A stretch of 42,306 nt of DNA, taken from positions 1 to 42,306 of IMG/VR virus record IMGVR_UViG_3300000228_000016. The stretch is one strand, 5' to 3'. The position numbers and the translations under genes are program-made. Positions within the stretch are counted from its first letter, which is position 1; each line of letters starts with the position of its first letter. Of this stretch, positions 5,860 to 39,957 are shown in pieces. Below the pieces are notes generated by a model that was given only the letters and a program-made list of their open reading frames with translations, did not search any database and was not told where the DNA came from. The stretch is from a virus.

Positions 5860-5911
5860 GTACTGTTTGAGTGATCCTAAAAAATGTAAATGCAAAGGTA
5901 AAAAGAAATGA
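5843..5911 (+). CDS. Tiny Cys-rich basic peptide, 22 aa
   Basis: Starts at GTG 5843, or at ATG 5852 for 19 aa. Four Cys in C-x2-C...C-x-C spacing and a Lys-rich end suggest a metal-binding knuckle. It overlaps both neighbours. Too short to be sure it is translated. Confidence 0.35.
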   Translation: MKKMCKYCLSDPKKCKCKGKKK

Positions 5912-6528
5912 TGATGTTAAAAAATCTCAAGATCGAAACTAAAACAGTAAAATTTAAAGATCTTAAGTATGCACCTTATAATCCTAGAGTTTTTAGTGCT
6001 GATGAAGAATTAAAACTTACCAGAAGCTTTGAACAGTTTGGATATGTTCAGCCTATCATTGCTAATAAACAAACAATGCACGTAGTCGGTGGGAATCAAA
6101 GACTAAAAGTTTTAAAGAAAATGAACTTTATAGAAGGGTCAGTAGTCTTTGTTGATTTAGATTTAGAAAATGAAAAACTTTTGAATATTGCTTTAAATAA
6201 AGTAGGAGGTGTTTTTGATCTTGAAAAAGTAAAAGATATTTTTAATGACATTAGTTTAAAATCACCTGAAATGGATTTATCTTTGTCAGGATTTTTCTTT
6301 CCTGAAATAGAAAAAATCCAAGGTCTAGGAGAATTAAAAGTATCAAACTTTGAAGAAGAAGAAAGTGATGGATATTCAGGCGGAGAACATCCTAAAAGTG
6401 TAATGAATGTTAATATTACTGCACCAAATTCTTTTAAGTCTTATGATGAAGAGATTGAATTACAGCACACCTGTCCTAAGTGTGGATTTGAATTTGATGA
6501 TAATGATAATCAACCAGAGGAAGAATAA
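5908..6528 (+). CDS. ParB/Srx-fold N-terminal domain protein with C-terminal zinc ribbon
   Basis: 206 aa. The N-terminal 110 residues match the ParB/sulfiredoxin-like domain common in phages: LKYAPYNPR, then RSFEQFGYVQPII and VVGGNQRLKVLKK. The middle is helical, and the C-terminus holds HTCPKCGFEF, half of a zinc ribbon. In phages this domain often stands next to or is fused with DNA methyltransferases; here it is four genes upstream of the C5 methyltransferase. A role as a DNA-binding or NTP-hydrolysing accessory to DNA modification is plausible. Three ATG codons stand in a row at 5908-5916; the true start is one of them. Not a chromosome-partition ParB: it is short and no ParA is nearby. 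Confidence 0.8.
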   Translation: MMMLKNLKIETKTVKFKDLKYAPYNPRVFSADEELKLTRSFEQFGYVQPIIANKQTMHVVGGNQRLKVLKKMNFIEGSVVFVDLDLENEKLLNIALNKVGGVFDLEKVKDIFNDISLKSPEMDLSLSGFFFPEIEKIQGLGELKVSNFEEEESDGYSGGEHPKSVMNVNITAPNSFKSYDEEIELQHTCPKCGFEFDDNDNQPEEE

Positions 6529-7054: not shown

Positions 7055-7284
7055 TGAATGTAATTTTAGTAGATAAGAAAAATGTTAAACTAGGTGAACT
7101 TGATTTACATACTATTCCAAGAGTAGGGGAGTATTTACAGATACCTTTTAGAGCAGGATATTTAATCTATGATTCAATGGGTCGTGAATCAGTCACTTAT
7201 GAAGTTTTAACTATAGAACATAAAATACATAAACATCATGGTCAAGATATCATAATAAAGTTAGCAATCCTTAACTATGATTAA
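7054..7284 (+). CDS. Hypothetical beta-rich protein, 76 aa
   Basis: ATG at 7054 overlapping the previous stop. Alternating hydrophobic pattern, Pro/Gly turns (RVGEYLQIPF) and a His-rich segment (HKIHKHHG) suggest a small beta-barrel; similar small phage proteins of unknown role exist. Overlaps the methyltransferase start by eight bases. Confidence 0.7.
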   Translation: MNVILVDKKNVKLGELDLHTIPRVGEYLQIPFRAGYLIYDSMGRESVTYEVLTIEHKIHKHHGQDIIIKLAILNYD

Positions 7285-9466
7285 GCCTGAGTTTTATATC
7301 CCTACTATGCAAGAAATAGCTAATGTAAATCAAAACGGTTTTAAAGCTATAAGCACGTTCTCAGGAACAGGCGGATCATGTCTTGGATATAGAATGAGTG
7401 GATATAGTCTACTATGGGCTAATGAGTTTATTCCAGACGCTCAAACTTGCTATAAAATGAACCATAAAAATTCTATCCTTGATACTAGAGATATTAGGAT
7501 TATCCAACCCGATGATATTTTGAATAAATTAAAGCTAGATATTGGAGATATTGACTTGATGGATGGATCACCTCCTTGTTTTGAAAAGGACACTTTAATA
7601 ATGACATCAAAAGGCTTAAAGAAAATTCAAGATATTTCTTTAAATGATGAAGTACTAACTCATAATAATAGGTTTAAAAAAGTTATAGAGTTATTTAAAA
7701 AAGAATCAGAAACTATTAATATAATAAAAGTTTCTGGAATACCTGAGATAAAAGCTACTTCTGAACACCCTTTTTATGTTCGTGAATTTAAAAGAACATC
7801 AAAAACTATTGATAGTAAAAGAGTTAAGATGAAAAAATTTGATGTGCCGAAATGGATAAATGTAAGTGATTTAGAAAAAAATCATTATATAGGAATAGCT
7901 ATTAATAATAAATCTGAATTACCTTTATATGAAGGATTGGAATATAAAATAAATCAATCAGACACAACTATTATTAAAAATAATCTTTCTTTTGATAATC
8001 CTAACTTTTGGTGGATAGTTGGAAGATGGATAGGAGATGGATGGGTAAGAATTAAGCATTATGAAAATAAATCAAGTCGTTATGATGTAAAAATATGTTG
8101 TTCAAAAAAAGATAACGAGTTAAAGGAAATTACAGATAAATTAGAGGGTTTATATAAGTTCAATATATCTGAAAATAGAACAACCTACAGAGTAGAAATT
8201 TGTAATAAAGAACTAGCATATTTTTTAAGAACCTTTGGGACAAGTTGTTATGATAAAAGAATTGATGAAAAAATATTAAACTTGCCTGTGGATTTACTTA
8301 AATCTTTTCTTGATGGATATATAAGTGCTGATGGACATATTGAAAATATTAAAACAGGTACAGTTTTATATTCTTGTGCTTCAGCAAGTAAAGAGTTAAT
8401 TGTTGGATTAACCGCTTGTATTCATAAAGTTTATAAAACACACGTTAATTATCATCACTATAAAAGAAAAGGTACTCATAAAATCGAGGATAGAACTGTT
8501 AATGTTAATGATATTTTTTCCATCAGGTTTAAATTAACTAAAGACTTTAGAGATCAATCTTTTTATGAAAATGGATGTATATGGACACCTTTTAAAAGTA
8601 AACAGAATATAAACTGGAATGATTATGTTTACAACTTTGGTGTTGAAGAAGACGAATCTTATACTGTTTATAGCCTTATTGCCCATAATTGTGTTTCGTT
8701 CTCTGGAGCAGAGGGAAAAAAAGCTCAAACAAAATGGGGCGTTGTTAAAAAATATTCTACAGGAAAAAATAAACAGAGAACAGATGATTTATTTTTCCAA
8801 TACTCAAGACTATTAAAATATTTACAGCCTAAAGTTTTTGTTGCTGAAAATGTTGACGGATTGATTAAAAGTGATGCAAAAGGTTATTTTAATCTTATCT
8901 ACAAAGAGTTAACAGCATGTGGTTACAAAGTAAAAGCAAAGGTTTTAGATGCTCAGTATTTGGGAGTTCCACAAAGGCGTAAAAGATTAATTTTTATTGG
9001 AGTTAGAAACGATTTGAATATTGATATCGTATTTCCTGAACCATTGGATTATATATATAATTTTAAAGATGCTGTGAATAGCCTGTCAGATGATAGATCA
9101 GAATTTTTAAATATTAATCCCAATCTTACAGAAATGTATCATCTGACAGGCTATCAAGATAATTTCATGAAAGCAAGTCAAAAGATACATGGTAAAGATA
9201 GTTATTTCTCACATCGTAGGATGTCATGGGAGACACCGATTACTACTGTTACTCAAGGACGTGCTACTTTGTATCACCCTGATATCCCAAGAACACTAAC
9301 AATAAATGAAGTAAAAAGATGTTCTACCTTTCCTGATGATTTTATTTTAGTAGGAAATTTTACTAAAAAATGGGAACGAATCGGACGAGCTGTGCCTCCT
9401 ATTATGATGAGAGAAATCTCAAAAATTATTGCTGAAAAAATGCTAAGTAAGTTAAAAGGTTACTAA
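7277..9466 (+). CDS. DNA cytosine-C5 methyltransferase fold enzyme, intein-containing; candidate carboxymethyltransferase
   Basis: 729-aa precursor; removing the intein (residues 101-471) leaves 358 aa, normal for this family. Motif I FSGTGG (28-33), motif IV DGSPP joined after splicing to catalytic Cys472, ENV of motif VI, motif VIII PQRRKRLIFIG, motif IX RTLTINEVKRCSTFPDDF and motif X IGRAVPP are all present. In motif X the Asn of the usual IGNAVPP is Arg704 (codon CGA 9386-9388). C5 enzymes flip cytosine and transfer a group from an S-adenosyl cofactor. A positive charge at this cofactor-side position, together with the CmoA-like gene downstream, suggests carboxy-SAM as donor, giving 5-carboxymethylcytosine (inference). 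The target-recognition region is short, so the recognition site may be short. No paired restriction enzyme is visible. Confidence 0.93.
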   Translation: MIKPEFYIPTMQEIANVNQNGFKAISTFSGTGGSCLGYRMSGYSLLWANEFIPDAQTCYKMNHKNSILDTRDIRIIQPDDILNKLKLDIGDIDLMDGSPPCFEKDTLIMTSKGLKKIQDISLNDEVLTHNNRFKKVIELFKKESETINIIKVSGIPEIKATSEHPFYVREFKRTSKTIDSKRVKMKKFDVPKWINVSDLEKNHYIGIAINNKSELPLYEGLEYKINQSDTTIIKNNLSFDNPNFWWIVGRWIGDGWVRIKHYENKSSRYDVKICCSKKDNELKEITDKLEGLYKFNISENRTTYRVEICNKELAYFLRTFGTSCYDKRIDEKILNLPVDLLKSFLDGYISADGHIENIKTGTVLYSCASASKELIVGLTACIHKVYKTHVNYHHYKRKGTHKIEDRTVNVNDIFSIRFKLTKDFRDQSFYENGCIWTPFKSKQNINWNDYVYNFGVEEDESYTVYSLIAHNCVSFSGAEGKKAQTKWGVVKKYSTGKNKQRTDDLFFQYSRLLKYLQPKVFVAENVDGLIKSDAKGYFNLIYKELTACGYKVKAKVLDAQYLGVPQRRKRLIFIGVRNDLNIDIVFPEPLDYIYNFKDAVNSLSDDRSEFLNINPNLTEMYHLTGYQDNFMKASQKIHGKDSYFSHRRMSWETPITTVTQGRATLYHPDIPRTLTINEVKRCSTFPDDFILVGNFTKKWERIGRAVPPIMMREISKIIAEKMLSKLKGY
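7577..8689 (+). mobile_element. Intein with LAGLIDADG homing endonuclease, inserted at the catalytic Cys
   Basis: 371 aa from Cys1 (codon 7577-7579) to the final Asn (8687-8689). Block A starts CFEKDTLIMTSKGLKKI. Block B holds ATSEHPF (TxxHP). The C-terminal blocks read YTVYSLIAHN, followed by Cys as +1 extein residue. The middle carries two LAGLIDADG-type motifs: VGRWIGDGW and FLDGYISADG. Splicing joins DGSPP to CVSFSG, restoring the catalytic PPC motif. Both LAGLIDADG acidic residues are kept, so the endonuclease may be active and the element mobile. The reading frame is open throughout. Confidence 0.93.
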
Positions 9467-9468
9467 AA

Positions 9469-9843
9469 ATGTCAATGTTATTCCTTCCAAGACAAATAGA
9501 AGACACAGGTCTGACTTTTAAAATAGGAAAAATTATCCATTTTCTTGAGGTTAACTGTAGAAATTTTCCTGAAGAAATTTTTACAAAATCATATAAGTTA
9601 GGTAAAGGAAATGATTATTTAATCAAAGTTTTTATTCCAGTAGAACATATTGTTGAAATTCCAGATCAAAGTAGAGACAGAAGACTTAAAGAGTTTTTAG
9701 ATTCCCTCGGTCAAACAATAATGAAAAATATCTCTAATGAATATACTTATTCAAAACATGATCTTACCACTGGAGAATTAGATGAGTACGAGGATTTTAT
9801 GTTATTTAGAATTTTTGTTACCAAGAAGTTTATAATCTTATGA
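9469..9843 (+). CDS. Hypothetical protein, 124 aa, between methyltransferase and PP-loop enzyme
   Basis: ATG at 9469, two bases after the methyltransferase stop; the stop TGA (9841-9843) overlaps the next ATG. Alpha/beta in appearance with a hydrophobic C-terminal strand; no cysteine motif, no membrane helix, no family recognised. Its place between two putative modification enzymes makes it a candidate accessory subunit, for example for substrate delivery; this rests on context alone. Confidence 0.7.
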   Translation: MSMLFLPRQIEDTGLTFKIGKIIHFLEVNCRNFPEEIFTKSYKLGKGNDYLIKVFIPVEHIVEIPDQSRDRRLKEFLDSLGQTIMKNISNEYTYSKHDLTTGELDEYEDFMLFRIFVTKKFIIL

Positions 9844-10691
9844 TGTTAAAGTCAGTTACTCCCAAAGGTTACGAAGCTATAAGAAAGTTAATGATAAAAA
9901 GGGTAGAAGAAATAGATCCTAATCATAATACAGCAATAGCATTAAGTGGCGGAGTTGATTCTACTGCTATATTATTTGCATTTTTAGAAAGTGGACGTAA
10001 GCCTGACTGTTATACTTTTAGACTTACTAACTATAAATCAGATGACTATAAATCTGCCAAGCTTTTATGTAAAGCATTTGGATTAAAATTCCATGAAATA
10101 CTTGTACCATCTGATGTGGAAAGCATTGTTAATGATATTGTTGAGATATTGCCTTATTGTGCTTATGTGAGAAAAACAATTATTCAGTGCATGATCCCCT
10201 GGTTATATATTTATCCAAAATTAGAGCAGGATCAAATAGTTTGCGGTTTCAAAGCTGATGATTTATTTCAAACATTCAAAGATTCACAGATGGACTTAAG
10301 AAAATACGGTGAGGAAAAAATACGAGAAACAACAAGATCAGGTTCTCATAATGAATGGACTGATGAAACATCTGTTTTTAATATTATGAAATTTGCCAGT
10401 CATTTTAATAAAAAATGTATAGATTTTTATTTTGACAAAGATATTATAAACGAGTTTTTAGATTATGAAATCCAAGCACTTCATAAACCTTTTGAAAAAG
10501 CTTTTTTAGTTGGAGCATTTAGTGACTATTTCCAAAAAGGCAGTTTCTATAGAAAAAGGAGTAATTATCAAATAAACTCAAGATTGAGAGAAGCCCATGA
10601 GAGACTGCTTAAATCTGAATATAACATCAATGATTCTAAAGCAGTAATAGGTATATACAATAGCATAGCAAGAAAGATGGAGTTAATATGA
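9840..10691 (+). CDS. Asparagine-synthetase-like PP-loop ATP pyrophosphatase, candidate DNA-base amidase-forming enzyme
   Basis: 283 aa. The PP-loop SGGVDST (residues 36-42) binds the pyrophosphate of ATP. The segment QIVCGFKADDLF (133-143) matches the pattern of asparagine synthetase C-terminal domains (G-x-(G/A)-D-E-L-F), and a KPFEKAFL segment near 220 fits the later conserved region. Asparagine synthetases adenylate a carboxylate and replace AMP with ammonia. The N-terminal glutaminase domain is missing, so ammonia or another amine must come from elsewhere. Between the C5 methyltransferase and the CmoA-like gene, it could adenylate and amidate a carboxymethyl group on cytosine (inference). 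Other PP-loop families (QueC, PAPS reductase, TilS) fit less well. Overlaps both neighbours by four bases. Confidence 0.85.
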   Translation: MMLKSVTPKGYEAIRKLMIKRVEEIDPNHNTAIALSGGVDSTAILFAFLESGRKPDCYTFRLTNYKSDDYKSAKLLCKAFGLKFHEILVPSDVESIVNDIVEILPYCAYVRKTIIQCMIPWLYIYPKLEQDQIVCGFKADDLFQTFKDSQMDLRKYGEEKIRETTRSGSHNEWTDETSVFNIMKFASHFNKKCIDFYFDKDIINEFLDYEIQALHKPFEKAFLVGAFSDYFQKGSFYRKRSNYQINSRLREAHERLLKSEYNINDSKAVIGIYNSIARKMELI

Positions 10692-11303: not shown

Positions 11304-11465
11304 ATGACAGAAATTATTGTGGTTATTATTAATATTTTGTTCATAGCTTATTTTTTAAGTGGTGGAAGTGGAATAGTAGAATATGACTTTATTATGATGA
11401 TTATTTATCTTTTACTTATGTCTTATTTTGTCACTGGTGGAAATCGAGCAGTTGACGATGACTAA
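11304..11465 (+). CDS. Small two-helix membrane protein with internal repeat, 53 aa
   Basis: ATG at 11304. Two hydrophobic helices, each followed by a similar segment: YFLSGGSGIVEYD and YFVTGGNRAVDDD. The protein is thus a tandem duplication of a helix plus a YFxxGGxxxV loop. Its end overlaps the CmoA-like start by eight bases, suggesting coupled translation. No family recognised; a holin-like or membrane-modifying role is possible but unproven. Confidence 0.55.
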   Translation: MTEIIVVIINILFIAYFLSGGSGIVEYDFIMMIIYLLLMSYFVTGGNRAVDDD

Positions 11466-12165
11466 AAAAACAAGTGTTGGACATTTACCTGTTCAAGAGA
11501 AATGGGAATTTGATAAAACAGTTACAGAATGTTTTGATGATATGCTTGAAAGATCTATACCTCAGTATGCTCTCATGCGTTCCTTAGTAAACGATTTAGT
11601 AAAAAGCTTTTATTATCCTAGAATAAGAATTTTAGACTTAGGAAGCTCAAAAGGTGGATCAATAGAAAGCTTAGTTAATGATCTTGACGCTCAGTTTATT
11701 TTATCGGAAGTTTCTAAACCTATGATTGAAGTTTTAGAGAATAAATTCCCTAATAAAGAAAAAGTAAAAATTATTACCGATGATATTAGAGAAAAATTTC
11801 CTTATTGTAATGCTAATATTACTTTATCTATCCTTACTATTCAGTTTATACCGATTGAGTATAGACAAGATATCATTCAAAGAATTTATGACAATCTCTC
11901 ATTCGGTGGAGTTTTTATATTTGTAGAAAAAGTACTTGGAAGTAATGCCTTGATTAATAAGACTTTAAATGATAACTATTATAATATGAAGTCCATAAAT
12001 GGTTATTCAGAAGAGGATATCCAAAGAAAGAAACTAGCTTTAGAAGGTGTTCTCGTTCCAGTAACAGCAAAATGGAATGAGAACTTATTAGAACAAGCAG
12101 GGTTTAGAAATGTCGATGTATTTTACCGCTGTCTGTGCTTTTCAGGATGGATAGCAATAAAATGA
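11458..12165 (+). CDS. CmoA-like carboxy-S-adenosylmethionine synthase
   Basis: 235 aa from ATG 11458; a TTG at 11428 without ribosome site is less likely. It follows E. coli CmoA along most of its length: WEFDKTVTECFDDMLERSIP near the start, motif I LDLGSSKGGS (59-68), ILTIQFIP (125-132), NGYSEEDIQRKK (181-192) and a CFSGWIAIK end. CmoA converts SAM and prephenate to carboxy-SAM, normally for tRNA wobble uridine modification by CmoB. As I recall, Arg199 of E. coli CmoA holds the carboxylate; the aligned residue here is Lys192, keeping the charge. No CmoB is present, so the product probably feeds another enzyme, most likely the C5 methyltransferase in the same operon (inference). The alternative is an ordinary methyltransferase of this branch. 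Confidence 0.85.
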   Translation: MTKKTSVGHLPVQEKWEFDKTVTECFDDMLERSIPQYALMRSLVNDLVKSFYYPRIRILDLGSSKGGSIESLVNDLDAQFILSEVSKPMIEVLENKFPNKEKVKIITDDIREKFPYCNANITLSILTIQFIPIEYRQDIIQRIYDNLSFGGVFIFVEKVLGSNALINKTLNDNYYNMKSINGYSEEDIQRKKLALEGVLVPVTAKWNENLLEQAGFRNVDVFYRCLCFSGWIAIK

Positions 12166-23235: not shown

Positions 23236-23985
23236 ATGACCATTAATAACTGGGATAAACAAACTGTAGAATTTTTGGATGAAAAATGTTTTAAAAATAG
23301 AATAACCAAAGTAGAAAAAAAACTTGTTGAGAGTTTAAAATTAATTCCTGATTTAAAAATAATAGATTACGGTTGTGGAACAGGAAGACTTGTTGAAATA
23401 CTTAAAACCCTTTATCCAGACTTTAATATTAAAAATAATTATATAGGTGTCGATCAATCCCAAGAAATGATCCTAAAAGCTAAAGAAAAATACCCTGATT
23501 TAGAATTTTCTTTATTAGATCCATTCTTTCAACCTATCAAAGATTTTAACACTTTAATATCTTTGGATGTATTACAACATCAAAACAAGCCTATGGAGTT
23601 CCTAGATATAATATTTGCTTTAGAAACTGACAATGTTTTTATAGAAACTTGGTCAAAAGAAAACGGACAAAATTTAGAGCATACAGAGAATATTATCACT
23701 CTACAATCAGGTAATCAATTTTACGAAAATATTTATAGTTTAAAAGCTATAGAAGAACTAGGTGCAATTTATGGAATGAATATTGACTTTGAAAATGAGT
23801 GTAATGCTTATGATACAACCCTTTTTTATTATACTGGAATAAGTGAAGTTCTAGCTTTTTACACTGGTTACTCAGTTCAAGAAATAGATGACTTTACTAA
23901 TGAATCAATGAAAGCTGAAAAAGTCATTGTAGGCACAGATATTAAAGAAACATTACAGTTTTTAAAGAATACAGATATAAAATAA
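23236..23985 (+). CDS. Class I SAM-dependent methyltransferase
   Basis: 249 aa. Rossmann motif I IIDYGCGTGRLVEIL (about residues 42-56), then IGVDQSQEMI with the acidic SAM-ribose residue, and a later LISLDVLQH. Substrate unknown; small-molecule or sugar methyltransferases look alike. GAGGAG at 23223-23228 ahead of ATG 23236, and the stop overlaps the glycosyltransferase start (TAATG), so the two act together. Their position inside the tail operon suggests modification of a virion protein or host glycan. Confidence 0.87.
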   Translation: MTINNWDKQTVEFLDEKCFKNRITKVEKKLVESLKLIPDLKIIDYGCGTGRLVEILKTLYPDFNIKNNYIGVDQSQEMILKAKEKYPDLEFSLLDPFFQPIKDFNTLISLDVLQHQNKPMEFLDIIFALETDNVFIETWSKENGQNLEHTENIITLQSGNQFYENIYSLKAIEELGAIYGMNIDFENECNAYDTTLFYYTGISEVLAFYTGYSVQEIDDFTNESMKAEKVIVGTDIKETLQFLKNTDIK

Positions 23986-25151
23986 TGAAAAAAAGGATAT
24001 TACATATAACACATGGCTTTTATCCTAATAAGGGATTTGAAGTATATTTAAAAAATCTAATTAATAACTTACCTGAATATAATCATTATGTAACTGTCTT
24101 TCCTAATAAAAACAATGACATAGGTTTATCAAGTAAAGTAAATGTTATTGAAATAAGCAGTTTAAACGATGTTAAAAATATAGTTGATACTTTTGATATA
24201 AAAATAGTAAACATTCATTGGACAGGAGCAGAGGCACTAAATAGTGATGCTTATTTATTACAGATAAAAGACAAAGAATATACAGCATATAATAATACTA
24301 GCAAATACCCTGATGATATTGATAATAATCCTTATGGATATGTAAATATTCCTTATCTCTGGGAAACATACATAGAAACAGGCAACATTATTAATGTAAC
24401 TTATCCTTGTTTAAAATCAGTGAAAATCAAAGAAAAAATAGTTAATCCGAATAGACCTAGATTTATCATCACTTCCCATAGTGATTTTAAATTACCTAGT
24501 TATTTGGATTTTCCTGTTATTGATAAAATTATTTCAGTCTCTAAAAAAAGTATGTTTAAACAGCTTCATGTTAATACACAGCATGAAGTTATATATAATG
24601 GTGTTCCTGATGAAATTCCTGATAATGTACTTCAAAAATCTATTAAAAGAAAATCTCAAGACCATAAAAAATTAAAAGCAGTCTGGGTTGGAATGTTAGC
24701 AAAATATGATGAGACAATTTACCAAGTAATAAAAGAAAATAAAGAAATTAATGAGTTATACGATTTCTTTTATCTAGGCACAGGGACACTGGATGAAAAT
24801 CCATTAAGTAATCATCATTTCCTCGGTGAAATTCCACATAAAAAAGTTTTAGATTTTATTTCAGACTGTGACGTATTCTTATACCCTAGTTCTATTGATT
24901 CATTCGGAATTGCTTTAGTTGAAGCAATGAGCTTAGGTCTAATGTGTATTACTTCAAAAGAAGTAGAAGAAGTGATATTTAATTCAGGTCTAATCTGTAA
25001 ATCAAAAAAGGATTATTTGAATAATCTTTTATCAGTTAGTAAAAATAAATCAGCCAAGTTTATTTATGGAAGTAAAGCAATAGACAGGGTTAAAGAAAAT
25101 TTTGTTTTATCCAAGATGATTGAGAGCTATAAAAAGGTATTTGACTTATGA
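23985..25151 (+). CDS. Glycosyltransferase, GT4-like (GT-B fold)
   Basis: 388 aa. N-terminal RILHITHGFYPNKG and C-terminal VFLYPSSIDSFGIALVEAMSLG with the E-x7-E-like nucleotide-sugar motif mark a retaining GT-B enzyme. The middle holds VWVGMLAKYDE typical of the hinge region. Full length. Likely substrates: tail protein, surface sugar, or modified DNA base; the tail context favours the first. Stop overlaps the tape measure ATG. Confidence 0.87.
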   Translation: MKKRILHITHGFYPNKGFEVYLKNLINNLPEYNHYVTVFPNKNNDIGLSSKVNVIEISSLNDVKNIVDTFDIKIVNIHWTGAEALNSDAYLLQIKDKEYTAYNNTSKYPDDIDNNPYGYVNIPYLWETYIETGNIINVTYPCLKSVKIKEKIVNPNRPRFIITSHSDFKLPSYLDFPVIDKIISVSKKSMFKQLHVNTQHEVIYNGVPDEIPDNVLQKSIKRKSQDHKKLKAVWVGMLAKYDETIYQVIKENKEINELYDFFYLGTGTLDENPLSNHHFLGEIPHKKVLDFISDCDVFLYPSSIDSFGIALVEAMSLGLMCITSKEVEEVIFNSGLICKSKKDYLNNLLSVSKNKSAKFIYGSKAIDRVKENFVLSKMIESYKKVFDL

Positions 25152-28100
25152 GTATGAATGTTGATATTTTAATCAGAGTAGTTTCTAACCAAGTTAGTGA
25201 AGCTTTAAGCAATATTACTGGGATGTTTACTAATTTAGCCAGTAAAGTAACTAACTTTTCTCTTGGATTTGAACAGACTATGAGAAATGTCAACACCATT
25301 GCTAAAGTTACTGAAGATCAGTTTAAATCTATGACTGACGAAATCAGAAAACTTTCAGAAGACCCTTTAATAAAAGATGGACCCACATCTTTAGCTCAGG
25401 GAATGTATACATTAGTATCATCTGGATTTGAAACAGCCGAAGCAATGAAAATTGCAGGAGTAGCAAGTAAAGCTGCCGCTGGAGGAGCTAGTGATGCCGC
25501 TACTGCTATTTCTACTTTATCTGGGATCATGAATGCTTACTCTCAAAGGACTTTACCTGACGCAATAAAATATTCAGATCAGCTATTTAAGATAATCGAA
25601 TTAGGTATATACGATTTTAATACTTTAAGTAGATCAATGGGTCAAGTATTATCTGTAGTAGATAGTACAAAAGTAGCATTTGAAGACATAGGTGCAATGT
25701 ATGTAGAACAATCTAAAAATGCAATATCAGCAGGAATGGCACAAATATCAACATTGTCAGTAATCAGAGAATTTATTAAACCATCTCAACAAGCAGTTAA
25801 AGTACTCAAAGAATATGGATTAGAAATGAGTACAGCCAGTCTTCAATCAAAAGGATTAGCTGGATCAATCCAAGAAATGTATGAAAAAGTCGGTCGTAAC
25901 AAAGAAGTAATGTTACAGATATTTGGGAAAAAAGAGCAACAAAGAGCTATTCTAGGTGTCCTAAAAAATGATATGAAGGATTATTTATCAGATGTTGAAA
26001 AGATCAAAAATAGCCAAGGATCAACTGACGACGCAGTAAAAGAGCAGTTAAAAAGTACTCAAGCCCAGTTGGATAAACTTTATTCTAGTTTAGAAAACAT
26101 GTTAATCGGATTCGGTCAAAATGTATTAAATGCTATGAAGCCTGTTATTACTGTATTAAATGCAGTGATAGAATTAATCAATTTAATAGATGATTCAACC
26201 AAAAAGATGATTGTTTCAACAGCAACATGGATAGTATCAATAGGCATTCTGTCAGGAGTATTAATAGGAATAACATCACTAATAGGCGGATCATTAGTAT
26301 CTGTTTTAGTTCTATTTAACACAACTATAATAGCAAGTATTTTACAAGTAGGTTTATTTGCAACTGTTACAGATGTTTTAGTAATTAGCGTTATTGCCTT
26401 ATCAAACGCTTTAAGAGTAATTATATTGTTTCTTACCCCTCTAAACATAGGTATTTTAGCAATAGTTGGAGCAATAGCTGCATGGCATAGTATAGTAGTA
26501 ATGTTACAGGGAGTTAATGAATCTACTTTGTCTGGATTCTCTGGATGGTTACAATATCTTGATCCTGTTAGATTATTAGGAGTCGGATTTCAGAAAATAG
26601 CCGATGCTATAAAAGATATTGGAGTTTTTGCTAAAGCCGCTAAAGATCAGGAAGATAAAGAGAAAGAAAAAAAAGAAGCCCAAGATACAATAGACGCATT
26701 AGAAAATCAAGCAAAAGCTATTGAAAACTTAAGATACAAATACGGTGATCTTGACAAAGCTAAAAAAGAATTAAGTAAATTATCAGGAGAAGAAGCTAAT
26801 CTCTTCTCAAAAGGTATGCAAGATTTCAATAGAATAAACAAAAGATCTATGACCAACGAAGAAAGAAATTCTTTTAGAGAAAATACCCAACAAAAAGTAT
26901 ATAAAAACCCTGTGGACTTACAAAAGAAAAAAGATTTTGAAAACTTAGAGTTAATGTCTTCCGATGATTACCTCAAGCTTAAAAATGCAAAAATACTTAT
27001 GAGCCAGTATGCTACTAAAGGAGAAGCTAGCCAAAGATATAAGAAAGAAGCTGAAAAGTATGGGAACGAGCAAGAAAGAAGGGCTAAAGAGGAAGAAGCT
27101 AATAAACTAGGAGAAGTATATAAAGACCCTTCCGATGATGTTCTAAGAAAAAAAGAACAGTTAAAATATCTTAGAGAAAAAGAATTTACCAATAAACTTT
27201 TAACTATCACAAAAGATAGAGAAAAAGCTTTATCAGAACTTGCCAAGAAAAATTTTGATGAGCAAACACACATTGAAGAAATGTTTACAGGTAAATCAAA
27301 AGAAGAGTTAGCAAGAAAAAACACTGCTTTAAAAATCCTTGAAACAAACTATGGTCTTGAAAAATTAGAAATCAAGAAAAAATTTGACGAAAAGGAAAAA
27401 GACGAAAGGGAAAAGAAAGCCGAGAAAGAGAAAAGGGATCAAGAAAAAATCCAAAAAGATTTATTGAAACATTATAATAAATTACTGGATATTAACAAAG
27501 GTAAAATAGATTTACTTGATTCTAAAAAAGAATCAGGACAAATCAGTCAACCTCAGTATGAAAAATCAATGAATCCTATTATCAAGCAAAGAAAAGGATA
27601 TTATCAGGACTTAATCTCTGGTAAAGAATCAAAAAAAATAGATCAAGATACTAAAGATACTTTCATAGGCGATCTTGATAAATTCAATAATGAATTAGTC
27701 ACTAAAAAAATTAAGATTAAAGAAAAACTTAACCAACAAGATTATGAAATGTATCTCAACTCTATTAAAAGAGTTAAAGATGAAAACACCTTTAAAGCTG
27801 ATAATGAATTAGAAAAAATTGCTCTTTATAAGGACAGTTTAAACAAAAAAGAAAATATTGATTTAGATTATTTCCAAAAGGTTTTAGCTCGTGAGAAAAA
27901 ATTAAAACTTGATAAAAACGGAATAAACATAGAGGCTATTGACGAAGAAATTAATGCTAATAATAACTTACTTAAAACTTTAACCCCTTTTGATGAAAAA
28001 AGAAAAGATATTATTCAGAAAAATATTGATCTTGAAAGAGAGAGAAATAAATTAGTCATGTCTTTCCTTATTGAAGAAAAAAAACTTGAGGAAGCCCAGT

Positions 28101-31100
28101 CTAATGAATGGATAGCATTAAATGATAAAATCAGCCAGATTAAGATAAGAGAAATTGACTTTGACATCCAACAAGCAAAACTAAAAGTTGCTAGAGGTGA
28201 AAAAACAGAACAATCCTTATATGATTTTGTTGTTCAAAAAACCAATGAAAAAATACAGCAATATAATTTAGATTTGGAAGCTAACAAAGATAACCAAGTC
28301 AAGATTGCTGAAATTAATAAAAGCATTACTGCCGAGCAAAATGTATTAACTGATCTTAAAATACAAAAAGACGAAAAAGAATATAAATTAAAATTAGATG
28401 TTTTCACCAGAATTAAAAATAATGCTGATGTTGCTTTTAAAAGTCAAAAAATAGGTGCCGATAAACTCTATGAGATTAACCAGAACATTAGGAAAGCAGA
28501 ACTAAAAGCTTTAGAGGAAAAGACTGTTGCCAGTGATAAACAATCTGAACATGAAATTGAGATCCAAAGAAAAAAGAATGAAATTACCATTGCTTTTATT
28601 GATGAAGAAGAGAGAAAGAGAACATCTTTATTTAATGGATTAAACCAAATAGGTGATCTAATAGGACAGTTTGATAATAAAACTGGAAATGCTGTAAAAA
28701 GTTTAGCTAGTTTTGGCAACACTATAGTAAATATAGTTAAGTCAGGAGGACAAGACGTAGGTGCATGGTTAAGTCTTGTTACTCAAGCTATTTCAGGAAT
28801 AGTCTATGTTTTCGAGGTTCAAAAAAATCAAGCTGAAAAGTTTTTAAATGATACTAAAGAATTGAATAATGAATTAATGAGTGTTTCAAATAATATTGCA
28901 CAGACCAACGCTCAGATTAACAGTAACTTGGATAATTTATTAAATGCAAGTGCTGAAAAGTTTAAAAAACAAAGAGTTGATACCACGAATGAGATTGATA
29001 AAAGCATAAAAGACTATCAAAAACAAATTGAACAATTAAGAAACGGGTTCAACATAGATAATATTATTGGATTTATGTTTGATAAAGAAAACTGGGCAGA
29101 AAGAACTAAAAATACTTATGAAAATTTAACCAATGCTATTGAAATGAAGCAAAAAGAAAAAGGTATAACATCTAATCAACAAACAGAGCTAGAATATAAA
29201 GAGAAGACTAAGATAACCTCTGATTATTATGCAAAAATAGAAAAATTAGAGATAGATTATACTAAAAATGAACAGGAACGAAAACAAAAACAATTAGATT
29301 TTGACCTTAAAAAAGCTAAAGAATCCTTAGATTTAGGCGATATGCAACAAGATGAATATAATAAAATTGTCAGGAATAAAACAGAAGACTTTAATGATTG
29401 GGTAAAAAGTAAAGATATTGAATTACAGAAATTAAAAATATCCTTACAAGAACAGTACCTTGATAAGTTGGATCAAACATATAAATTAGAAATTCAACTA
29501 CTGGAAGAAAAAAACAGGCAAGGATATATTAAAGAAGAAGAATATCAAACAAGGTTAGCTATCTTAAAAAAATCTTTCCAAACGGATTTATTAGATCAAC
29601 TTAATAAACTTGTTTCCGAAAAAGACAGGTTAGCAAATAAACTAATGGAACAGGAACTTAAACCTATTACTTCCAAAGCTGAAATTGAGATAGAAAATAT
29701 CAGACGTAAAATGCGACCTGTGGAAGCACAAGTAAGAGCATTAGATGAACAACTCAGGAAAATAGACGAGGCTTATGCAAGACTTGAAAAAACAGCAAAT
29801 AAAGACAGCTCGGCTGAATTTGCTAGACTTAGACAAGCAAGACTAAAGGATATTGAAGCAAATTATCAAGGCTTTTATGGACGTAGTGAAGACGCTTTTA
29901 ATATAGATCAAGACGCAAAAAGGGAACAAATAGAGAGTGACTTTTTAAACGGTTTAACTACTGAAGCTGAGAGAGTTAAAAAATTAATGGCTCTACAAGT
30001 AGATGGGAATATTTTCTACTCTAAAATAACAAGGGATATTAAAACAAGTCAAGGTGCGACACAAATGTATTTTGATTATGTAAAAAGAGGAAATCAGGCT
30101 TATGCTGACTTTAACTCTTTATATAAAGAAAATACATCTATTAAAGCAAAAAATGAAAGGGATATACTAGAGGATCAAAAGAAAGGTTTAACAGATATCT
30201 TGGATCAGAACGAGAGTAATATTAAGACCATTGAAGAGAAAATGACTGAAAGTATAGACAGGATAACTTTATCATTCAAGGATTCGGCAGGGCAATTTTC
30301 CAATGAATTAATATCAAAAATGACAGGGAAAGGAGGGGCATTTGATATTATCCTTGAGCAGTGGAGAAAAGTGGATCAAGAAATTAATGCTACCAAAGCT
30401 AAAGTTGAAAGTACTTTATCAAGTAATCAAAAACTAGCACAATCAGCAGATAAAGGCTATGTAATGAGTACTGGGACATCATCAAGTAATGCTGATAACA
30501 CTCCGAAATCAGGTGAAACATACGATCAAATGATTGCTAGATTTAAAAAAGAAGATGCTGAAAAAGCTAAAGCAGCCAGTAGTAAAACTGTAACATCAAA
30601 TAATTCTAGTCCAATACTTACCGCCGCTATCACTGCTGGAAATGTAGCTAAAACTCAACAAACTGCTAGTAAACCAGTTGTGAATAATGTTCCTAAAGAA
30701 AATAGTTTAACTTACTCAGGATCAAGCTATGATTACACTAAGCCTACTATTATTAAAGGGATAAACTATGGATTTTTAAATAATTCCAGTACCAGTTGGA
30801 ATAGAGTAGAACAAGAAAAATTTGAGCAAAATATTATTAACCCTAAAAAAGCTGAAACTAAGCAAACTGGCACATTTGACAAAGGCGGATCACTTGGATT
30901 TCTCAATCCTTTAAATTGGTTCGACACAGGGGGATTAGTTAAAAATAAGTCAATAGTCGGTGTGGCTGAAACTGGAGCAGAAAGAATACTATCTCCTAGA
31001 CAAACCACAGCATTTGAGAAATTAGTAGAAAGTATTACTAACCCATCTTTTAAAACTTCAAATTTTGGAGGAGGAACAAATGTTTATGTAAATATAACAG

Positions 31101-31201
31101 GTAATACTATATCTAGTGAAATGGATCTCAATAGAATCTCTAGCAAAATATCTAAAGATGTTATGGCAAAAATGACAGAAAATTATGTAAGCACTGGCTA
31201 A
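25148..31201 (+). CDS. Tail tape measure protein
   Basis: 2017 aa, by far the longest gene. The N-terminal 330 residues form the TP901-like core (AKVTEDQFKSMTDEIRKLS, VASKAAAGGASDAATAIS). A strongly hydrophobic region lies at about 348-460. Long Lys/Glu-rich coiled coil fills most of the rest, and a Gly-rich end (FDTGGLVKNKSIVGVAETGAERIL) is typical of these proteins. Sets tail length; by the usual 0.15 nm per residue, about 300 nm. AAAGG at 25133-25137; ATG 25148 and 25154 both possible. No lytic transglycosylase or peptidase domain was spotted. Confidence 0.95.
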   Translation: MSMNVDILIRVVSNQVSEALSNITGMFTNLASKVTNFSLGFEQTMRNVNTIAKVTEDQFKSMTDEIRKLSEDPLIKDGPTSLAQGMYTLVSSGFETAEAMKIAGVASKAAAGGASDAATAISTLSGIMNAYSQRTLPDAIKYSDQLFKIIELGIYDFNTLSRSMGQVLSVVDSTKVAFEDIGAMYVEQSKNAISAGMAQISTLSVIREFIKPSQQAVKVLKEYGLEMSTASLQSKGLAGSIQEMYEKVGRNKEVMLQIFGKKEQQRAILGVLKNDMKDYLSDVEKIKNSQGSTDDAVKEQLKSTQAQLDKLYSSLENMLIGFGQNVLNAMKPVITVLNAVIELINLIDDSTKKMIVSTATWIVSIGILSGVLIGITSLIGGSLVSVLVLFNTTIIASILQVGLFATVTDVLVISVIALSNALRVIILFLTPLNIGILAIVGAIAAWHSIVVMLQGVNESTLSGFSGWLQYLDPVRLLGVGFQKIADAIKDIGVFAKAAKDQEDKEKEKKEAQDTIDALENQAKAIENLRYKYGDLDKAKKELSKLSGEEANLFSKGMQDFNRINKRSMTNEERNSFRENTQQKVYKNPVDLQKKKDFENLELMSSDDYLKLKNAKILMSQYATKGEASQRYKKEAEKYGNEQERRAKEEEANKLGEVYKDPSDDVLRKKEQLKYLREKEFTNKLLTITKDREKALSELAKKNFDEQTHIEEMFTGKSKEELARKNTALKILETNYGLEKLEIKKKFDEKEKDEREKKAEKEKRDQEKIQKDLLKHYNKLLDINKGKIDLLDSKKESGQISQPQYEKSMNPIIKQRKGYYQDLISGKESKKIDQDTKDTFIGDLDKFNNELVTKKIKIKEKLNQQDYEMYLNSIKRVKDENTFKADNELEKIALYKDSLNKKENIDLDYFQKVLAREKKLKLDKNGINIEAIDEEINANNNLLKTLTPFDEKRKDIIQKNIDLERERNKLVMSFLIEEKKLEEAQSNEWIALNDKISQIKIREIDFDIQQAKLKVARGEKTEQSLYDFVVQKTNEKIQQYNLDLEANKDNQVKIAEINKSITAEQNVLTDLKIQKDEKEYKLKLDVFTRIKNNADVAFKSQKIGADKLYEINQNIRKAELKALEEKTVASDKQSEHEIEIQRKKNEITIAFIDEEERKRTSLFNGLNQIGDLIGQFDNKTGNAVKSLASFGNTIVNIVKSGGQDVGAWLSLVTQAISGIVYVFEVQKNQAEKFLNDTKELNNELMSVSNNIAQTNAQINSNLDNLLNASAEKFKKQRVDTTNEIDKSIKDYQKQIEQLRNGFNIDNIIGFMFDKENWAERTKNTYENLTNAIEMKQKEKGITSNQQTELEYKEKTKITSDYYAKIEKLEIDYTKNEQERKQKQLDFDLKKAKESLDLGDMQQDEYNKIVRNKTEDFNDWVKSKDIELQKLKISLQEQYLDKLDQTYKLEIQLLEEKNRQGYIKEEEYQTRLAILKKSFQTDLLDQLNKLVSEKDRLANKLMEQELKPITSKAEIEIENIRRKMRPVEAQVRALDEQLRKIDEAYARLEKTANKDSSAEFARLRQARLKDIEANYQGFYGRSEDAFNIDQDAKREQIESDFLNGLTTEAERVKKLMALQVDGNIFYSKITRDIKTSQGATQMYFDYVKRGNQAYADFNSLYKENTSIKAKNERDILEDQKKGLTDILDQNESNIKTIEEKMTESIDRITLSFKDSAGQFSNELISKMTGKGGAFDIILEQWRKVDQEINATKAKVESTLSSNQKLAQSADKGYVMSTGTSSSNADNTPKSGETYDQMIARFKKEDAEKAKAASSKTVTSNNSSPILTAAITAGNVAKTQQTASKPVVNNVPKENSLTYSGSSYDYTKPTIIKGINYGFLNNSSTSWNRVEQEKFEQNIINPKKAETKQTGTFDKGGSLGFLNPLNWFDTGGLVKNKSIVGVAETGAERILSPRQTTAFEKLVESITNPSFKTSNFGGGTNVYVNITGNTISSEMDLNRISSKISKDVMAKMTENYVSTG

Positions 31202-39324: not shown

Positions 39325-39957
39325 TTGGCTTTAACTGGAAAAAATATAATATTAGTTGATGATGATTCAATAATACAGGTAATGATTAAGCAAATTCTAA
39401 TAATGCTTAATTGTGATGATTACGAGGTATGTAAAAGTGTTGAAGATGCAATTTTAAAATGTGAAGGTACAACATTTGACTTTGTAATCCTAGATATAAA
39501 TTTTCATGGAACAATGGCAGCAGAATATCAGCCACAGAAATCTGGAATAGATATGATTAAGTATTTATATCAAAAAAAAAGACCTGTTCCTGTTTTAGTT
39601 TTCGCTTCTGATATAGATAGCTCTAGTTTTGATTTATTCAGATACGAAAATAATCATTTGACAATATGTTATTTAGAGAAACCATCTAGTCAGATTGAAA
39701 TATCAAAAGCCATAAAAAATTGTTTAGAAATCCATTCTTGCAAAGATTTAAGAGAAGTAAAATTTCCTTTAATGGCTAAGTCTATGGAGGATTTAAAAAA
39801 AGAAATAGAGGAAATGAAGGAAACCACTATTAAAAATATAGCTGAAAATATTTTTATAGAGTTTCTCTCAACCAACAGAGCTAAAATAATAACTGCATTA
39901 GGAGCAATAAGTGCAGGTCTATTTACTTATTATATGACTATATTAAAAACTACTTAA
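39325..39957 (+). CDS. Response-regulator receiver domain with C-terminal membrane segment
   Basis: 210 aa. Residues 5-130 form a complete receiver: acidic pocket VDDD (11-14), phosphoacceptor Asp57 in FVILDINF, Ser95 in VFAS and Lys119 in LEKP. No DNA-binding output domain follows; instead a coiled coil (153-172) and one membrane helix (about 186-206, ITALGAISAGLFTYYM). TTG start at 39325, because the next ATG would remove the acidic pocket; AGGG at 39309-39312. It follows the endolysin, where a holin is expected. A phosphorylation-gated membrane protein, perhaps a regulated holin, is an attractive but unproven idea. Convergent with the ParB-like gene; the stops overlap. Confidence 0.83.
   Translation: MALTGKNIILVDDDSIIQVMIKQILIMLNCDDYEVCKSVEDAILKCEGTTFDFVILDINFHGTMAAEYQPQKSGIDMIKYLYQKKRPVPVLVFASDIDSSSFDLFRYENNHLTICYLEKPSSQIEISKAIKNCLEIHSCKDLREVKFPLMAKSMEDLKKEIEEMKETTIKNIAENIFIEFLSTNRAKIITALGAISAGLFTYYMTILKTT

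Follow-up and report, generated by a model that had tools for sequence, protein, structure and literature searches.

The window, by which we mean the whole 42,306-nucleotide stretch of viral DNA analysed here, is a tailed-phage fragment with terminase, Mu-type portal and tail protein genes, and it very probably carries a CmoA-CmoX-CmoY DNA hypermodification cassette whose CmoX is assembled by protein splicing. The analysis supports the placement of its cmoX-like product among the CmoX-type enzymes, as a distant, intein-interrupted and predicted DNA cytosine carboxymethyltransferase.

The system itself is already known. CmoX chemistry was published in December 2025 for SpCmoX of Synechococcus phage S-B43, which takes a carboxymethyl group from carboxy-SAM (Cx-SAM) and places it on C5 of the cytosine in a GC motif; phage CmoA is the source of the cofactor, and CmoY joins glycine to the carboxylate (PMC12783734). 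Arg350 of SpCmoX touches the carboxylate of Cx-SAM and is equated with Asn304 of M.HhaI, the wild type accepts Cx-SAM only, and the R350N variant accepts neither cofactor (PMC12783734).

The interrupted cmoX-like gene and its motif X

Examination of the cmoX-like gene (7277-9466, plus strand) revealed a 729-amino acid precursor in which the two parts of a C5-cytosine methyltransferase are separated by an intein (TIGR00675, E = 6.6e-48; PF00145, E = 7.2e-51; searches of Pfam and NCBIfam), an architecture to which the intein domains and an AF2 model also point. The N-extein comprises residues 1-100 and ends in LMDGSPP (7277-7576, plus strand). It is followed by an intein of 371 amino acids with a LAGLIDADG homing endonuclease, running from CFEKDTL to YSLIAHN (precursor residues 101-471; 7577-8689, plus strand), and by the C-extein (8690-9466, plus strand), whose +1 Cys (8690-8692) becomes the catalytic Cys of SPPC once the protein is spliced. 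Within the intein, TIGR01445 marks the N-terminus (residues 101-168) and TIGR01443 the C-terminus (450-472), both over their cut-offs, as is the LAGLIDADG match PF14528, and PF14890 is matched as well. The two LAGLIDADG motifs, WIVGRWIGDG (8012-8041, plus strand) and LDGYISADG (8309-8335, plus strand), have both kept the catalytic Asp in the sequence. The splice junctions read SPP|CFEKD and IAHN|CVSF, and all splice residues are present: Cys1, TxxH (TSEH), the penultimate His, the terminal Asn and the +1 Cys. Residues 101-471 of the model match residues 1-371 of the TliVMA intein (7QSU) with a Z of 30.8. The precursor model is confident for most of both exteins and of the intein, but not for the catalytic loop (472-504). 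The unspliced precursor also reads SPPC, its Cys being Cys1 of the intein; the SPPC of the mature CmoX, where SPP closes the N-extein and Cys+1 opens the C-extein, is contiguous only after splicing. Because the intein sits exactly at SPP^C and the catalytic Cys is the +1 junction residue, the precursor should be inactive. Splicing is predicted to take place in vivo.

The usual motif X residue in C5-cytosine methyltransferases is Asn. At 9380-9394 (plus strand) the window reads ATCGGACGAGCTGTG, translated as I-G-R-A-V, with the Arg codon CGA at 9386-9388. A replacement of the motif X Asn by Arg at this site had been proposed in the initial annotation, and the assignment of the column holds: the residue shares its column with Arg350 of SpCmoX (8YF3, ERVGRMVPP) and the Asn of IGNAVP in M.HaeIII. 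The number 704 given to it then is right for the 729-residue precursor, but the intein had been overlooked, and in the spliced protein of 358 residues it is Arg333.

Among solved structures, the best match of the spliced protein is SpCmoX (8YF3, E = 5.1e-60, phmmer), with M.HaeIII far behind (4.4e-27). By fold, too, 8YF3 is the best solved match: the precursor AF2 model superposes on it with Z 36.4 (VIA-align; 309 residues, 35% of them identical), against Z 29.2 for M.HhaI. All the contact residues of the SpCmoX crystal paper, F25, E47, F48, D69, C98 and R350, are conserved in the window protein. The two enzymes (PMC12783734; 8YF3) thus have in common the fold, SPPC, the motif X Arg and the Cx-SAM-contact residues, whereas the window CmoX is about 36% identical to SpCmoX and carries an intein at SPP^C. 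Its target domain is divergent; GC dinucleotides, with an observed/expected ratio of 1.12 in the window, gave no sign of a target or of avoidance.

The idea of an enzyme dedicated to carboxymethyl transfer, with a neighbouring CmoA-like gene as its supplier, agrees with what is published for the orthologue SpCmoX (PMC12783734), by analogy with which Cx-SAM use, a 5cxmC product and an amide step are predicted for the window. A parallel with M.MpeI N374K had also been drawn, correctly according to PMC12783734: there a basic residue in place of Asn opens the use of Cx-SAM, and Arg is set equal to M.HhaI Asn304. A basic residue thus replaces Asn in both enzymes, but in M.MpeI it is an engineered Lys and the target is CG, whereas the Arg here is natural. 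The swap R704N is not expected by itself to bring back the use of SAM, given that the corresponding SpCmoX variant, R350N, takes neither cofactor.

A scan for an intein-start pattern at the SPP^C site returned 26 viral contigs. Sixteen resemble CmoX of Erwinia/Dickeya jumbo phages, with an intein starting CF[TL] and, where the end was available, an Arg motif X (ERLGR[IV]CVP). The other matches were five Met-type enzymes (L230, L239, L245, L249, L250), one Asn-type enzyme (L231) and four chance matches; no cmoA was detected in the loci of these Met- and Asn-type carriers, and the intein of L245 is a mini-intein of 135 amino acids. The Erwinia/Dickeya phages (e.g. vB_EamM_Y3, KY984068) share with the window an Arg-type CmoX and an intein at the identical site, and Y3 further has cmoA in its genome, about 17 kb from cmoX, and a ParB-like gene directly upstream of cmoX. 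Their exteins are 35-37% identical to that of the window, but their inteins are only about 23% identical and have lost the first LAGLIDADG Asp, whereas both acids are kept in the window intein. The latter is nearest to the intein of Met-type L230 (38.9%, against 23.3% for L227 of the Erwinia group), and the window extein is nearer to Erwinia CmoX (37.2%) than to L230 (31.7%). Since intein and extein kinships disagree, inteins have moved between enzyme classes at catalytic-Cys codons. These sequence comparisons give evidence for the catalytic Cys of phage C5 methyltransferases and carboxymethyltransferases as a recurrent intein site. No report of an intein at the catalytic Cys of a C5 methyltransferase was found in the literature searched, outside which most subscription papers and preprints lie, so that novelty is not proven; the nearest match was a study of actinophage methylase inteins that nowhere uses the words cytosine or catalytic (PMC9957025), and inteins are unmentioned in the CmoX paper (PMC12783734).

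Association of the motif X arginine with cmoA and with other positions

Relatives were gathered by alignment scans of viral contigs and of bacterial genome contigs, and the samples therefore represent nearest relatives, not random draws. A single-sequence scan of the viral contigs with the spliced protein returned no relative, an alignment query being required. Arg occupies motif X in 114 of 139 deduplicated loci and in 35 of the 78 bacterial loci where this residue could be read. When the viral loci were counted as found via the methyltransferase itself and deduplicated, cmoA was present in 87/90 loci with Arg and in 0/21 with another residue (Fisher, 9e-20). The bacterial contigs gave 32/35 with Arg, 0/31 with Asn and 0/12 with Met (non-Arg 0/43; Fisher, 8e-19), both Fisher values overstating the association since the rows are related by descent. 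With viral and bacterial enzymes pooled, cmoA was nearby in 0/64 of those with Asn, Met or Leu. The correlation of a basic residue with a CmoA neighbour, which the initial annotation had put forward for examination, is thus clear, and Arg is far from common away from cmoA, with three of the 90 viral and three of the 35 bacterial Arg loci lacking it. Most of these exceptions are poor in flanking sequence, with about 1 kb downstream (L055, L056), about 0.6 kb upstream (L067) or an end at the contig edge (L258, L287). L310, from Chloroflexi, genuinely departs from the pattern: this contig has genes for an Arg-type enzyme (LGRMVAP) and for a CmoY-like protein, and no cmoA within 8 kb.

In a FastTree tree of 145 rows, built on an alignment that retained the Arg column itself, five independent changes to or from Arg fall on supported branches; cmoA accompanies 4.9 of the five on average and opposes none. 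The tree-controlled sign test gives p = 0.0625, the minimum reachable with five pairs. Several Asn groups are nested among the Arg enzymes, with no cmoA in their loci and no cmoY detected in those examined, and give the appearance of having reverted to plain methylation. Arg at motif X is not a chance substitution: it is fixed across a large family and tracks the neighbouring cmoA.

Two further positions change together with the Arg. The residue following the catalytic Cys is Gln in 16/19 Asn enzymes and in 0/116 Arg enzymes, which have Ala, Ser, Lys, Val or Cys instead; the same pattern is repeated in bacteria, with Gln in 31/31 Asn enzymes and in none of the Arg type. A loop Ser (Ser123 in spliced numbering) is found in every one of the 114 Arg rows that could be read there, and the residues listed for Asn rows do not include it, the bacterial exceptions having Gly (L266, L281, L285, L306). 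In tree-controlled pairs both columns mostly follow Arg and never oppose it, the four or five pairs being too few to reach significance. From these alignments we infer that a pocket containing Arg requires another residue to follow the Cys, a requirement which may explain why SpCmoX R350N is dead, i.e. why no methyltransferase arises from the single change.

Other observations arose from the same scans. A class with Met at motif X (GMSVPP) has Ser after the catalytic Cys and is without cmoA (L308, L309, L312, L315-L318, L321, L322, L326, L328, L329, L091-L093). Some Verrucomicrobia MAGs have several cmoX-cmoA loci on separate contigs (L269, L273, L275 and L282 in one MAG; L272, L278, L279 and L280 in another), for which prophages, mobile elements or a host function are candidate readings. 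Alcaligenes phage Afa-NA1 (L009) encodes a CmoA homologue 47% identical to that of the window; within 8 kb of it, no C5 methyltransferase is annotated.

Ligase, CmoA and other neighbouring genes

Homologues of cmoA and cmoY both lie less than 3 kb from the window cmoX. The cmoY-like gene (9840-10691, plus strand) encodes an asparagine-synthetase-type, ATP-dependent amide ligase of 283 amino acids (PF00733, E = 2.7e-8) in which the PP-loop SGGVDS and the KP..K motif are kept. No PDB match was obtained by sequence, its kinship resting on Pfam and on fold: the AF2 model (pLDDT 91) has AsnB and beta-lactam synthetase as top folds (1CT9, E = 1.4e-8). The motif common among these ligases, GxxADGHFGxSKKxMIH, corresponds to GFKADDLFQTFKDSQMD in the window ligase, its ADGHFGxSKKxMIH stretch being ADDLFQTFKDSQMD. 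In view of this unusual pocket motif, the amine may differ from glycine. Several CmoY clusters with other pocket residues and unassigned amines have been described (PMC12783734), and the window ligase may belong with them. A glutaminase domain, present in the ligase of Streptomyces phage TurkishDelight, is absent here, which makes glutamine-derived ammonia less likely unless a separate enzyme provides it. As in S-B43, an AsnB-type ligase and a cmoA accompany cmoX, and a ParB-like gene is present as in many relatives reported in PMC12783734; the window ligase, however, is only 26% identical to that of S-B43 and has another pocket motif, and the gene order differs, a thymidine kinase gene being located between cmoY and cmoA.

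The cmoA-like gene (11428-12165, plus strand) is an open reading frame with a TTG start and a first internal ATG at 11458, and codes for a putative carboxy-SAM synthase. TIGR00740 is its best family (E = 2.3e-43), although the score of 148.6 bits is below the curated cut-off of 193.3. The closest solved structures are E. coli CmoA (4GEK, E = 1.5e-28) and H. influenzae YecO (1IM8), both of them CmoA proteins. These two proteins serve tRNA cmo5U together with CmoB, whereas the window gene is found in a phage beside a DNA enzyme. Arg199 of E. coli CmoA was considered as a marker of Cx-SAM synthases and set aside as non-discriminating: the window protein has Lys, but the active SpCmoA has Glu.

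Upstream of cmoX lies a ParB-like gene (5908-6528, plus strand; phrog_620, E = 3.1e-36; PF02195, E = 2e-4, under its cut-off) with a C-terminal CxxCGxxF tail, and such a gene is also upstream of cmoX in L003, L005, L006 and L007. The ParB-like gene ahead of cmoX often has a zinc-ribbon-like CxxCGxxF/W tail (window, L003, L005-L007, L070, L098). Open reading frames with this tail occur in 58/108 Arg-enzyme loci and in 11/17 Asn-enzyme loci, so the ParB-like gene seems tied to the methyltransferase and not to the cofactor. Elsewhere in the window, genes for a second protein resembling SAM-dependent methyltransferases and for a glycosyltransferase (23236-25151) are found just upstream of a large tail-protein gene (25148-31201), and 39325-39957 encodes a response-regulator receiver domain protein (PF00072).

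Proposed pathway and competing explanations

In the cassette as we propose it, CmoA (11428-12165) would convert SAM and prephenate into carboxy-SAM. The 729-residue precursor (7277-9466) would lose its 371-residue intein, SPP being joined to CVSF to give the catalytic SPPC. The mature CmoX of 358 residues would then flip out a cytosine, Cys101 attacking C6 and a carboxymethyl group being placed on C5, while Arg333 would bind the carboxylate of Cx-SAM and shut out SAM. The ligase (9840-10691) would adenylate the carboxylate and join an amine to it, and the amide-modified phage DNA should be shielded from host nucleases. In a bolder form of this proposal, the product would be an undescribed hypermodified cytosine: the spliced CmoX carboxymethylates, the divergent ligase adds an amine other than glycine, and splicing gates the timing of modification. 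Taken as a whole, we regard this bolder form as unlikely.

The enzyme could instead be an ordinary SAM-dependent C5-cytosine methyltransferase in which the motif X Arg is neutral, the CmoA-like gene serving host tRNA modification. It has the catalytic core of a C5 methyltransferase, and bacterial CmoA does work in tRNA modification (PMC12783734), but a neutral Arg is hard to reconcile with a cmoA that almost always adjoins Arg enzymes, with Asn enzymes that are nested in the Arg family and lack cmoA, with two further columns that change with Arg, and with an Arg-bearing orthologue that takes Cx-SAM only (PMC12783734). We give this explanation hardly any credence. Scarcely more credible is a decaying cassette, in which the intein would block the catalytic centre and active enzyme would not be made. 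The location of the intein exactly at the catalytic Cys and the placement of loop 472-504 without confidence in the precursor model could be taken that way; against decay, the splice-junction residues are all intact and the frame is open throughout, every active-site residue is kept across the two exteins, and the sixteen Erwinia/Dickeya-type phage contigs have inteins at the same site and exteins that are intact where readable.

A spliced, active CmoX is preferred, and the intein might in addition act as a switch, holding back carboxymethylation until conditions allow splicing, a refinement of the preferred explanation and not a replacement for it. That the SPPC motif is created only by splicing and that the SPP^C site recurs in several enzyme classes would suit such a switch. 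We consider it quite improbable, however, in view of the many intein-free relatives (which the scans favoured), of the transfer of inteins between enzyme classes, and of the endonuclease decay in Erwinia phages and the mini-intein of L245, both of which fit an ordinary homing cycle.

Our findings extend the known system by a distantly related member with an intein, by a test of the Arg-cmoA link that takes the tree into account, by two co-varying positions and by evidence for a recurrent intein site. The tree-aware comparison independently confirms a single-residue marker of DNA enzymes that use carboxy-SAM, and the two co-varying positions should aid the engineering of such enzymes. Moreover, intein-bearing enzymes of this kind start out as precursors expected to be inactive, for which both annotation and expression must allow.
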